DNA of 64,000 nt from Candidatus Kapaibacterium thiocyanatum (GTDB taxonomy: Bacteria > Bacteroidota > Ignavibacteria > Kapaibacteriales > Kapaibacteriaceae). Each line of letters begins with the position of its first letter. Within the stretch, counting starts at the first letter, position 1. Of the stretch, positions 24,051-30,306 are shown one piece after another. The stretch spans positions 1-64,000 of the forward strand of contig MKVH01000017.1 of NCBI GenBank assembly GCA_001899175.1. The letters are read 5' to 3'. The position numbers were made by a program, and so were the translations under genes. The notes below the pieces were generated by a model that did not search any database, was not told where the DNA came from, and worked only from the letters and a program-made list of their open reading frames with translations.

Positions 24051-24761
24051 ATGCGAATACTGGTTATCGAAGACGAACGCAAGGTCGCGAGCTTCATCAA
24101 GCGTGGCCTCGAAGAGGAACGGTACATCGTGGAAACCGTCGCCGACGGTGAAGCGGGTCTGGACCTGGCGATGAACAATCATTTCGACGCCATCGTGCTG
24201 GATGTGATGCTTCCGAAGCTCGACGGCTATTCCGTGCTCAGCGCATTGCGCGATACGGGGAATGCCACACCTGTCCTGATGCTCACCGCTCGTGGCACGA
24301 CGGAGGATCGCGTACAGGGACTCGACCTCGGTGCCGACGACTATCTCGCCAAGCCTTTTCATTTCGAGGAACTCGCTGCGCGGCTGCGGAGCATCCTTCG
24401 CCGGTCGAGTACGGAGAAGACGACGAAGCTCCAGTGCGGAGATCTGGTTCTCGACATGGTCACGCACTTCGCGTATCGGGGCGACAAGGAGATCGAGCTC
24501 ACGACGAAGGAATATGCGCTGCTCGAATACCTTCTGCGTCACAAGAACCGCATCCTGTCGCGCAGCATGATCATGCAGCATGTGTGGAAGCATAACTTCG
24601 ATCCGGAATCGAACATCATCGACGTCTATGTGAAACGCCTGCGCACCAAGGTCGAACGTCCGGGCGCACCGCAGATCATCCAGAGCATCCGCGGTGTGGG
24701 GTATCGCATCCGCGAGGCTGCGGAAGGGGATGACGACGAACCACAGCAGGAGGAAGAATGA
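24051..24761 (+). CDS. OmpR/PhoB-family response regulator
   Basis: 236 aa. The receiver domain has the acidic pair at MRILVIEDERK, phospho-acceptor Asp51 in IVLDVMLPKLDGY, the Thr in LMLTARGTT, and the Lys in DDYLAKPFHFEEL. A winged-helix DNA-binding domain follows (IELTTKEYALLEYLLRHKNR ... NIIDVYVKRLRTKVE ... SIRGVGYRIRE). An acidic tail ends EEE. It resembles the CusR/CopR branch. No histidine kinase gene adjoins it, so its partner is elsewhere. A TATCTTCG, one base off the -7 consensus, lies only 5 bases before the ATG; if used, the mRNA would be nearly leaderless. The ATG at 24051 starts exactly at the conserved receiver strand. Confidence 0.93.
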   Translation: MRILVIEDERKVASFIKRGLEEERYIVETVADGEAGLDLAMNNHFDAIVLDVMLPKLDGYSVLSALRDTGNATPVLMLTARGTTEDRVQGLDLGADDYLAKPFHFEELAARLRSILRRSSTEKTTKLQCGDLVLDMVTHFAYRGDKEIELTTKEYALLEYLLRHKNRILSRSMIMQHVWKHNFDPESNIIDVYVKRLRTKVERPGAPQIIQSIRGVGYRIREAAEGDDDEPQQEEE

Positions 24762-24783
24762 CGACTCACTTCGACGTACGATC

Positions 24784-25110
24784 ATGACGGCCAGCGATCT
24801 CAGGACTGCCCTGCAGGCGACTGTCGTCGCTGCTGTGCCCGCAGTGCAACAAGCCTTCGACACCTATCAGGAACATTGCTTCATCGCTCGTCCGCCGGAG
24901 TTCTTCTGTCTCGAACTCTGCGGCGAAGCCGGTGAGCTGGCTAACCTCGAGAAGAAGCGCTGGAAGGGCAAGGATGTGGATGAAGCGCACGTTGCCGACG
25001 AGGCTGCTGACGTCTTCATCGCTCTCGTGAATTTCTGCAATGCACGGGGCATCGATCTTGCGCAAGCCGTGACGAAGAAACTCGACAGGATAGAGCCGTC
25101 GAAGGTGTAG
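24784..25110 (+). CDS. MazG-like nucleotide pyrophosphohydrolase
   Basis: 108 aa all-alpha NTP pyrophosphatase. The metal-binding pattern ExxE...ExxD is visible as LELCGEAGELANLEKKRWKG followed by VADEAADVFIALVNF. Family members hydrolyse (d)NTPs or non-canonical nucleotides to monophosphates as house-cleaning; short single-domain forms are often dCTPase-like. It begins at the ATG at 24784, 22 bases after the response regulator and probably in its operon. The same frame is open back into that gene only as a shadow. Substrate cannot be told from sequence. Confidence 0.8.
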   Translation: MTASDLRTALQATVVAAVPAVQQAFDTYQEHCFIARPPEFFCLELCGEAGELANLEKKRWKGKDVDEAHVADEAADVFIALVNFCNARGIDLAQAVTKKLDRIEPSKV

Positions 25111-25299
25111 TGCATAGAATCTCCCGCAGGCCCTATTACAGATCATGACGAGGCCAAGGCAAGCCAATACGTCGTGTTCAGTTGCGGCCATATAGTCATC
25201 ATATGCATTCGGATGCCTGCCGGTTAGATCCGTCAAGTCTAGTTTTAGTAGTGGTTGTCGAGAAACGATATTCGATCTATTGATAATGATAGATGTTGG

Positions 25300-25321
25300 C
25301 GGCTGCTTATCAGCCGTTTTT
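25300..25321 (+). terminator. Terminator or attenuator ahead of the A+T-richer island
   Basis: CGGCTG (25300-25305), loop CTTAT, CAGCCG (25311-25316), then TTTTT. It lies 190 bases after the MazG-like gene and 25 bases before the next ATG. It could end the upstream transcript or act as an attenuator for the island genes if their promoter lies further upstream. Confidence 0.6.
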
Positions 25322-25345
25322 GTATTTACTTATTTGAGGTTGGTT

Positions 25346-25669
25346 ATGTCGTACCGTTCTGTTCGGAATGTGCTCTTCGGTATGTTCCTGTTACTTGGCA
25401 TAATTGTTGTAATGGATGAGGTGATGGCCACTACAAAGACCTACATTGCGGGGCCCGGCCGTAGATTTTCGGGTACGGGAACATATCCTGGTGAAGCGAA
25501 GCCTAATTCTAGTCAGGATGCGGGAGGTAACGTGGATTTCGAATGCCGCCCCAATCCGATGAGCGTCTGTGCGACGGTAAATCCGTATCGGATTGATGTG
25601 TTCGAACTGGAATTCAATCCAGGCGGTTCCGGTTGGACCTCATACCATATTGAAAATATTCCGAACTAA
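25346..25669 (+). CDS. Small exported protein with two cysteines, unknown family
   Basis: 107 aa from the ATG at 25346, which has GAGG seven bases upstream; an earlier in-frame ATG at 25280 would put the terminator hairpin inside the gene. The start MSYRSVRNVLFGMFLLLGII then VVMDEVMATT is a signal peptide or anchor. The mature part is short and Gly/Pro/Asn-rich (GPGRRFSGTGTYPGEAKPNS) with two Cys eight residues apart in FECRPNPMSVCATV, suited to a disulfide. It is the first of three genes in an A+T-richer patch; the next two encode a lipoprotein and a CxxC protein. The general look (short leadered Cys protein before a propeller-type lipoprotein) recalls Bacteroides NVEALA loci, but no NVEALA motif is present. 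Confidence 0.6.
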   Translation: MSYRSVRNVLFGMFLLLGIIVVMDEVMATTKTYIAGPGRRFSGTGTYPGEAKPNSSQDAGGNVDFECRPNPMSVCATVNPYRIDVFELEFNPGGSGWTSYHIENIPN

Positions 25670-25741
25670 CTTTCTTCGGGGCACGGCCGCGGATATCTGC
25701 GGTTGTGCCCCAATGCATTTCATACTAGGGGCAATGCTGTA

Positions 25742-27001
25742 ATGATTCGTCTTGGTGTTCTCTGCTGGTCCCTCGTAACAATCGTCATCACGTCCTGTGC
25801 GCAGGACAGGAAGAACGTCAAGATCGTTAGTGTTGATAGGCTGTCTCTGATCGAACGTACCGGGTTTCCGATACTGGATCCATATCATATCGAGGCCCGC
25901 AAAGGTGTACTGTTGATCAGCGACAAGAAGACCGGCACGTTGCATCTAGCAAACGGGATGGAAGGTAAGGTATTCGCGATCCTGCAACCGCCAATCGAGT
26001 TGCTGATCGATAGTATTCGTTTCAAAATATCGGGTAGGTATGATTCCGTCGAGTTCTACTCGTTAGCCGAGTATGCTGTGATGACACGTCAGAGCATCGA
26101 TGAAGTGAGAAGCTTCCCAATGGCACGTCCTCGATATCTGGTCGGCAGGTTTGTGACGGATGATACTCTGGATATCCTGACTCAGAATTCTGTTCCTGCA
26201 GTTCGTAAGAACGTCGAGCCTATGATGTGGCCCGTCGTTTCTATCGTGCGCTATGCTCTCAAAGGACGGAACATCGTACATGTACGTCCCTTGTCGAGCA
26301 GGGAGCTGTCATCCTGGCCAATGCCCGACGCCTTTCTTGCCGATCTCGATGAGGCGATAGTAGGTGTAGAAGAGAACGCTGCGATGCGAAAGGGCATCAT
26401 TAGCGACATACCGTTGATGGCGCGATTCGATGCTAAGGGTAATCACAGTACGATGCATTTGCCGATCGACGAACTCCAGACGAAGACATTCGGATATGGT
26501 ATGACGATGAATCAGCCGTTCCGGATGAACGGGAAAGCGATTCTGTATACCTATGCCGCGGTACCGCGTGCGACGATGTTCACGAGAGCCCTGTCGGATG
26601 ATCGGGCCATATCGTATGAGGATGTTATCAGGAAGTTACCCGGCGGGCAGGCTCTTCTGGATAGTGTCTACGTACTTCGGAGCGGAGTGCAGCGTGCCCG
26701 GGCCGGTATGAATCCATATGTCTGTACCGGATTCGTACCGATCGGTGGATATTGTGCTGCCGTCATACGCGATTGGACGACGAAGCATGGAGATACCGTG
26801 ACATCTCATATCGCAGTCGGAATTATCGACGGTGATTCGATTACCTATGGCTCATCGATTCCGTTTCGGCATTCGTCGTATCAGCCTTGGCGTATCTACG
26901 CAACAGTACATGATACTCGTACTTCGTTTGGCGTGATAGGGAGAGATATCGGAACTGGTAACTGGTATATAGAAACATTTCGCATTGGTACCGGAGAATG
27001 A
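25742..27001 (+). CDS. Lipoprotein, probable beta-propeller, unknown function
   Basis: 419 aa. The N-terminus MIRLGVLCWSLVTIVITSCA ends in a lipobox (ITSC), so the mature protein is lipid-anchored. The body shows spaced blade-like strands: GVLLISDKKTGTLHL, PRYLVGRFVTDDTLDILTQN, IPLMARFDAKGNHSTMHLPI, GKAILYTYAAVPRATMF, HIAVGIIDGDSITYG. This layout resembles the 6-bladed propeller lipoproteins of Bacteroidota; the fold is an inference. The ATG at 25742 has AGGGGC about nine bases upstream. Its TGA overlaps the ATG of the thioredoxin-like gene, so the two are coupled. Codon use is less G+C-biased than in the flanking genes. Confidence 0.65.
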   Translation: MIRLGVLCWSLVTIVITSCAQDRKNVKIVSVDRLSLIERTGFPILDPYHIEARKGVLLISDKKTGTLHLANGMEGKVFAILQPPIELLIDSIRFKISGRYDSVEFYSLAEYAVMTRQSIDEVRSFPMARPRYLVGRFVTDDTLDILTQNSVPAVRKNVEPMMWPVVSIVRYALKGRNIVHVRPLSSRELSSWPMPDAFLADLDEAIVGVEENAAMRKGIISDIPLMARFDAKGNHSTMHLPIDELQTKTFGYGMTMNQPFRMNGKAILYTYAAVPRATMFTRALSDDRAISYEDVIRKLPGGQALLDSVYVLRSGVQRARAGMNPYVCTGFVPIGGYCAAVIRDWTTKHGDTVTSHIAVGIIDGDSITYGSSIPFRHSSYQPWRIYATVHDTRTSFGVIGRDIGTGNWYIETFRIGTGE

Positions 27002-27438
27002 CATCCCTGCTTCTGTCTATGATGCTTCTGCCTGGATGGTTTTCGGAAACCGTGAGTACGGCGGATTTCAACCGTGCAAAAAAGGCGGTAGTTGTCTTCG
27101 TTCCGCTCTATCCCGGAGATTGTGCCAAATGCACCGTCGAAGCTGGGGCGATTCTCAGGACCATCAATACCAGGGCTCAGGCAAAAGGGAAGAAGGTCCT
27201 GGTCTATACCTTGGTCTATGCGAAAAGAGGCCAGGACATGGAATATCTGAAGAGCAACGGATATACGTTCGGCACTACGATTCTCGACCCTGATGCGGAT
27301 CGGATAATATCGTTGCAGAAAGGTGACAGAAGCGTCCTGTTAGTAGCTTTTTGGCCGGGATACGATGGGGTATCGCTACGGCATGTAGGTGACGTGGACG
27401 TACTGGGCACGGACAAGGCTGCCCCGTCACGGAAGTGA
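26998..27438 (+). CDS. Exported thioredoxin-like protein with CAKC motif
   Basis: 146 aa starting MTSLLLSMMLLPGWFSETVS, a short signal-like segment. VVVFVPLYPGDCAKCTVEAG fits the first strand and active-site helix of a thioredoxin fold, with CxxC = Cys-Ala-Lys-Cys. KVLVYTLVYAKRGQDMEYLK and FGTTILDPDADRIISLQKGD continue the fold, as in TlpA-like or AhpC/TSA-like redoxins, although the cis-Pro is not obvious. The ATG lies within the stop of the lipoprotein gene (ATGA). With two-Cys product 25346-25669 in the same run, an oxidoreductase for that product is a reasonable guess. Confidence 0.65.
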   Translation: MTSLLLSMMLLPGWFSETVSTADFNRAKKAVVVFVPLYPGDCAKCTVEAGAILRTINTRAQAKGKKVLVYTLVYAKRGQDMEYLKSNGYTFGTTILDPDADRIISLQKGDRSVLLVAFWPGYDGVSLRHVGDVDVLGTDKAAPSRK

Positions 27439-27534
27439 TCCGTCCGCTCTTCTTTGCACCGGTTCAGGATCTGAAAGATCTGTGATATTGGTGAATCACG
27501 TCCGTCAAGACGATATACCATAGCCCGAAAACGA

Positions 27535-27569
27535 ACGAGGCCCGCAGTTGCGGGCCTCGTTTCGTTTTC
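27535..27569. terminator. Strong bidirectional terminator between the island and rpmG
   Basis: A perfect 12-bp stem (27535-27546 with 27549-27560, core GAGGCCCGCA/TGCGGGCCTC) has a 2-nt apex and is followed by TTCGTTTTC on the plus strand. On the minus strand the stem is followed by TTCGTTTTCG. It sits directly at the 3' end of rpmG and 97 bases after the thioredoxin-like gene, so it serves both converging transcripts. Confidence 0.88.
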
Positions 27570-27747
27570 AGCGGATTTCCTTGTGGATCGTATGGCGACG
27601 AAGGAACGGATTGTACTTCTTGAGTTCAAGTCGTTCCGTCGTGTTCTGCTTGTTCTTCATCGTCGTATAACGCGATGCCGGCTTGCCTTCCTTCTTGGCT
27701 TCCGTGCACTCGAGCGTGATGATCACGCGTGCGCCTTTTTTTGCCAT
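27568..27747 (-). CDS. rpmG: 50S ribosomal protein L33
   Basis: 59 aa: [20 protein letters not shown], then [20 protein letters not shown], then [15 protein letters not shown] and a TGA. This is a complete L33 with the conserved YTT.KN..NT..RLELKKY.P block. It lacks the paired zinc cysteines, so it is the zinc-free form. A consensus Bacteroidota promoter lies 38 bases upstream and a strong terminator overlaps its stop, so it is probably monocistronic. Confidence 0.96.
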
Positions 27748-27784
27748 GGTACTGCTCCAGTTCGTTGTTGCTTGTTCAGAACCA

Positions 27785-27816
27785 CAAAGCTACGGGCATG
27801 TCGCGAAATTTCCAAA
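27785..27816 (-). promoter_or_regulatory. Bacteroidota-type promoter for rpmG
   Basis: Read on the minus strand: TTTG (-33, at 27816-27813), 20 bases, TAGCTTTG (-7, at 27792-27785). Both boxes match the TTTG/TAnnTTTG consensus exactly at the standard spacing. Transcription would start about 30 bases before the rpmG ATG. Confidence 0.7.
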
Positions 27817-27843
27817 CCGTTGGCATGACGGGGCTTGGAGCCC

Positions 27844-30306
<2,463 letters not shown>

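Follow-up and report, generated by a model that had tools for sequence, protein, structure and literature searches.

A recurrent, exchangeable gene trio for a small two-cysteine protein, a probable beta-propeller lipoprotein, and a thioredoxin-like protein in Ignavibacteria

RESULTS

A gene trio of low G+C content in Kapaibacterium

The window, by which we mean the whole 64,000-nucleotide stretch of Candidatus Kapaibacterium thiocyanatum analyzed here, carries three closely spaced genes between a mazG-like gene and rpmG (Table 1). An earlier note, made from the letters of this DNA, had claimed three plus-strand genes here, and we confirmed their coordinates, their product sizes, and the ATGA through which genes 2 and 3 overlap. 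We also confirmed that the cassette is less G+C-rich than its surroundings: the trio has a G+C content of 51.0% versus 60.2% for the whole window, only 5 of 620 same-length sliding windows are as low (all 5 overlap the cassette), and GC3 is 0.51, 0.55, and 0.59 in the trio genes versus 0.79 in lon and 0.71 in infC. The note had further placed a terminator on each side. Both hairpins exist, but about 20 nt separate the upstream stem from the start codon of gene 1, which places it in the leader or promoter region and not outside the unit, and the downstream hairpin (-36 kcal/mol, z = -7.3), set between two convergent transcription units, can serve either strand. Searches of Rfam over positions 24600 to 28200, of Pfam and NCBIfam with the three proteins, and of the PADLOC anti-phage defence models with the window's proteins returned no match (no significant match for Pfam and NCBIfam).

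Table 1. Features of the cassette in the window and of sigma-factor genes at related loci
Feature	Position	Strand	Description
Terminator-like stem-loop, then T5	25298-25323	+	~20 nt 5' of gene 1 start codon; leader or upstream transcript end
Gene 1	25346-25669	+	107 aa; N-terminal signal sequence; Cys67 (25544-25546) and Cys75 (25568-25570)
RNA hairpin, 15 bp	25678-25711	+	In 72-nt gene 1/gene 2 spacer; proposed partial terminator or 3' stabiliser
Gene 2	25742-27001	+	419-aa lipoprotein, probable beta-propeller; lipobox ITSC at 25787-25798
Gene 3	26998-27438	+	146 aa; thioredoxin-like; CAKC at 27121-27132; without cis-Pro
G+C-rich hairpin with T-tract	27527-27569	either	Between convergent ends of cassette and rpmG
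Stretch reduced to 4 bp in same-genus G003	25111-27567		Between mazG-like gene and rpmG
ECF-type sigma-factor genes, related loci	L064 5103-5648; L071 7540-8211; L019 4152-4745; L062 9752-10100		Pfam sigma-70 region 4 in 4/4; 3 above cut-off

The three protein families

Across loci, the small proteins measure 89 to 107 aa and have a signal-like N-terminus in 16 of 16 cases. Both Cys are invariant in all 15 aligned relatives, separated by 5 to 8 residues (C-x5-8-C), and apart from Met1 they are the only invariant positions; no Trp is invariant among these 15 proteins. The spacer that follows, between genes 1 and 2 (50 to 116 nt across loci), holds a hairpin that the earlier note had overlooked. 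In the window it is predicted at -35.6 kcal/mol (z = -4.2), and hairpins of z ≤ -2.5 occur in 14 of 17 trio spacers versus 1 of 18 control spacers from the same loci, the exceptions being the spacers of G015, G069b, and G676b. The hairpin sequences are unrelated to one another, and it is therefore the feature that is kept, not the sequence. At several loci a T-run follows, resembling an intrinsic terminator; the window copy lacks it.

The gene 2 product is identified as a bacterial lipoprotein by its ITSC lipobox in the window and by a Cys19 column at least 90% conserved across 17 members. It is probably a beta-propeller, judging from the family profile (A15), which resembles one WD40 blade (PDB 7bie, E = 1.3e-4); among the Pfam propeller models, none exceeded its curated cut-off in the 17 members, and the best was Lactonase in one member (E = 0.021). 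What had been called a propeller-type lipoprotein therefore stands as a lipoprotein, with its propeller suggested by one WD40-like stretch. AlphaFold models of the lipoprotein and the CAKC protein, each built from a two-sequence alignment, were uninformative (pLDDT 38 and 35, respectively).

On profile evidence, the third protein is thioredoxin-like: its family profile matches PDB 2m72 over about 115 residues (E = 1.1e-5), and 3 of 13 members match AhpC-TSA (best E = 8.5e-8). The family resembles TlpA/ResA/AhpC-TSA-type proteins (PDB 2m72 and 3c73) in this match and in the placement of CxxC after the first strand, but it differs from them in its CVKC-type motif, its invariant Val73 and Arg77 (invariant alongside the CxxC), its constant position beside a propeller-type gene, and its lack of the cis-Pro. 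At the cis-Pro position, set through alignment to 2m72, none of the 13 aligned members has Pro; the alignment also holds no invariant His or further metal ligand. A published survey describes the cis-Pro as more conserved than the CxxC itself and notes that it may prevent metal binding (PMC2757866). Because the cis-Pro is absent in all 13 members, ordinary thioredoxin chemistry is not to be assumed for this family and classical exchange is uncertain. In its window copy the CAKC protein has a weak export signal (hydrophobic, without a basic residue), which is clearer in most orthologues. The earlier list of products thus stands for the exported 107-aa two-Cys protein and the 419-aa lipoprotein, and in part for the exported CxxC protein, called a thioredoxin there, which is thioredoxin-like by profile but lacks the cis-Pro and has a weak export signal in the window. 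Two thioredoxin-like proteins at different genomic sites, in G036 (L064 7420-7884) and G055 (L071 5224-5697), are almost identical over their last ~20 residues, with 96% DNA identity over 54 bp at the 3' ends, while the whole proteins are only ~38% identical.

Recurrence of the trio across the class

We iterated a lipoprotein profile through the class and used the thioredoxin-like and small-protein profiles in reverse. Repeated co-occurrence of the three genes, which the earlier note had set as the check on a system, was borne out: with the iterated profiles, complete trios were found at 14 loci in 12 genomes, spanning 10 genera and 5 families of the class (G000, G015, G069 with three loci, G106, G102, G627, G036, G126, G676, G082, G055, and G138). 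The second trio was first found, in a family search, in G015, an uncultured Ignavibacteria MAG whose small, lipoprotein, and thioredoxin-like proteins share 32%, 25%, and 25% identity with those of the window. In the reverse direction, all 14 matches to the thioredoxin profile in 159 genomes adjoin a propeller-type gene and 12 of them also adjoin a small gene, while 11 of 13 matches to the small-protein profile in 139 genomes fall within complete loci; these profiles were drawn from mostly the same loci and might therefore overlook remote orphans. Genes 2 and 3 overlap or almost touch at all loci, with a distance of -16 to +6 nt in every complete locus (the exception is a divergent second set in G126, at -47).

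Homologues without each other, named earlier as evidence against a system, do occur in addition to the 14 complete loci. Propeller and thioredoxin genes without a detected small gene are found in G082 (C42) and G028, a small gene with another propeller gene and no thioredoxin gene in G082 (C138), and a propeller gene only in G005 and G006; the incomplete loci of G641 and G138 are cut by contig ends. The three genes are a real recurrent system, and the module is apparently undescribed, since literature searches on NVEALA and on propeller/small-peptide operons found no description of it.

Beyond the class, a scan of the genome-contig collection gave no match for the window lipoprotein, and the G015 lipoprotein matched only its own genome. 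Most weak lipoprotein matches outside the class, namely those in G356, G385, G323, G402, and G433, had no small Cys gene adjoining in the ORFs listed, and several are ordinary propeller arrays; G179 was rejected as a relative, being a generic repeat protein.

Individual loci showed further features. Directly downstream of its first trio, G126 carries a second, divergent set of a small Cys protein, an exported propeller-sized protein, and a CKEC protein (L067 7596-9629), and its spacer holds a hairpin of the same type. At 4 loci in 2 families, an ECF-type sigma-factor gene is located immediately upstream of the trio (Table 1). The propeller-type relative in G005 (L008 3977-7928) has no small gene; after it come a 115-aa membrane protein and a long ORF whose product is TlpA-type at its C-terminus and carries a GRNA repeat tract close to its N-terminus.

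Presence or absence of the module and mosaic paralogues

The window has 2.46 kb between the mazG-like gene and rpmG, whereas in G003, from the same genus, only 4 bp separate these two convergent genes; this is one genome compared, and thus gain in the window and loss in G003 are indistinguishable. Relative to its flanks, the trio is poorer in G+C at 15 of 16 loci, with differences of up to 19 points. On either side of the G015 trio lies one copy of a 40-bp sequence that comprises the beginning of alaS and the bases preceding it (L006 7420-7459 and 9744-9783; direct repeat, 98% identity, 35 bp perfect). A single base distinguishes the copies, and both fall within a 297-kb contig, the genome being a MAG. 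The arrangement looks as if an insertion had duplicated its target or recreated the beginning of the gene; none of the adjoining ORFs read was recognized as an integrase gene, and no comparable direct repeats above chance flank the window trio.

Paralogous lipoproteins are mosaic. In G676 a pair shares ~92% identity over roughly the last 150 residues and ~43% before, and in G082 paralogues are identical over their final ~40 residues. G082 also has three propeller-type genes in tandem, with no small gene (L066 5255-9119), whose C-termini are identical and whose middles have diverged, indicative of recombination or gene conversion. In G676, the small gene and the lipoprotein gene have been duplicated together (59% and 57% identity, respectively), with one thioredoxin-like gene common to both pairs, which suggests that the small protein and lipoprotein form a specific pair and that the thioredoxin-like protein is a common tool. 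The distance matrices of the three families correlate (r = 0.72 to 0.73), which may reflect shared ancestry only. The empty site in G003, the low G+C content in 15 of 16 loci, and the mosaic tandem paralogues support the view that the module is accessory and exchangeable, as the earlier note had suggested.

DISCUSSION

Proposed function and alternatives

In a reading that we hold with about even confidence, the whole is best explained as an accessory module of the Bacteroidota cell envelope that combines a small disulfide protein, a cognate propeller lipoprotein, and a dedicated thiol protein. In the small exported protein, the invariant Cys pair would form a short C-x5-8-C disulfide loop, and this protein would probably be made in excess if the spacer hairpin stops or trims much of the transcript. 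The propeller-type lipoprotein would hold or bind its small partner at the outer membrane. The thioredoxin-like CxxC protein, presumably translated in coupling with gene 2 and directed to the membrane or periplasm, would engage the Cys pair of the small protein, or a Cys of the lipoprotein, and set its redox state by thiol exchange. Since the cassettes are gained, lost, and recombined, the likely role would be variable surface recognition, either from strain to strain or towards a ligand. The earlier note had put forward a similar scheme, in which the CAKC protein would form or reduce the disulfide of its small partner and the lipoprotein would display or bind that partner, conceivably as a signalling device. 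A bolder and doubtful version holds that cassette recombination lets the secreted disulfide-loop protein diversify together with its cognate propeller lipoprotein, while the atypical, cis-Pro-less thioredoxin locks or switches the loop, so that redox conditions outside the inner membrane control self/non-self or partner recognition; the trio would then be an undescribed exchangeable surface recognition module.

Several of the same observations would also fit secreted antagonism, in which the small disulfide protein is a bacteriocin-like toxin aimed at other bacteria, with the lipoprotein shielding the producing cell and the thioredoxin-like protein acting in toxin maturation. The patchy accessory distribution and low G+C content, the duplication of small and lipoprotein genes as pairs, the G082 C42 array of tandem propellers lacking a small gene (reminiscent of orphan immunity arrays), and a spacer hairpin that would yield more small protein than lipoprotein all point this way. 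We nevertheless consider antagonism unlikely, given that no dedicated exporter, leader peptidase, or modifying enzyme was recognized among the neighboring ORFs read, that PADLOC gave no match, and that a signal sequence alone is insufficient for release from a Gram-negative cell.

Ligand capture, in which the lipoprotein binds a small extracellular ligand and the small Cys protein is an accessory, is improbable. Like BtuG and XusB, the gene 2 product is a lipoprotein of Bacteroidota, here a probable propeller, and surface propeller lipoproteins that capture ligands are known in Bacteroides, with XusB being seven-bladed (PMC13142918). However, systems of the BtuG/XusB type pair the lipoprotein with a TonB-dependent transporter, and none was recognized adjoining the trio among the ORFs read in the window and related loci; the constant partners of the lipoprotein here are instead two Cys proteins. 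Slightly more improbable is metal handling, in which the CxxC protein binds a metal or cluster and the module does not act on a disulfide. The cis-Pro thought to prevent metal binding at the CxxC of thioredoxins (PMC2757866) is missing in all 13 aligned members, but the alignment offers no invariant His or further ligand, and the invariant Cys pair of the small protein favors thiol chemistry between partners.

Methylamine dehydrogenase has a propeller as its heavy chain, and its gene cluster (MauA, MauB, MauD) likewise joins a small exported Cys protein, a propeller, and a thioredoxin-like maturation protein; the trio differs from it in the absence of a conserved Trp, its few Cys, and its lipoprotein anchor. 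A periplasmic redox enzyme of this kind, with a small Cys subunit, a propeller subunit, and a MauD-like thioredoxin for maturation, is the least probable of these readings: although one operon here encodes the same parts (the propeller being a probable one) and MauD and MauE are known maturation factors (PMC7794033), tryptophylquinone enzymes need a conserved small-subunit Trp whereas only the two Cys and Met1 are invariant in 15 small proteins, methylamine dehydrogenase contains six disulfides in its small subunit (PMC7876137), and the large protein here is mostly a lipoprotein.

Relation to other small-protein/propeller pairs

The accessory envelope module that we favor would, if real, amount to a surface module under redox control that is distributed across a class of environmental bacteria. 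With the trio come two protein families that neither Pfam nor NCBIfam models, along with a divergent thioredoxin-like one, and the Cys pair and CxxC protein give a testable chemical handle on the role of small-protein/propeller pairs. We know of no assigned function for small exported Cys proteins encoded beside propeller lipoproteins, and a literature search on small Cys/propeller lipoprotein pairs found neither a function nor, among the papers covered, any mention of NVEALA. The pairing itself is a known, uncharacterized theme; the version with a coupled thioredoxin-like gene is apparently undescribed.

In Bacteroides NVEALA loci, a short leadered Cys protein is encoded before a six-bladed-propeller lipoprotein, and the order of genes 1 and 2 here is the same. 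The trio differs from those loci in its thioredoxin-like third gene, in the lack of any Pfam propeller model at cut-off, and in the absence of PF14055. Membership in NVEALA was rejected: with E values up to 1 allowed, PF14055 matched none of the 15 small proteins, and it matched none of 60 related genomes, while a control Bacteroides genome was matched, which agrees with the earlier statement that the motif is absent. By analogy, the trio would work like the NVEALA theme, but it is no member by any model tested. A weak profile match in a genome of another class (G486) leads to a locus where two small Cys-rich exported proteins (L096 5741-6371) precede an exported propeller-type protein (L096 4620-5732) without a thioredoxin gene.
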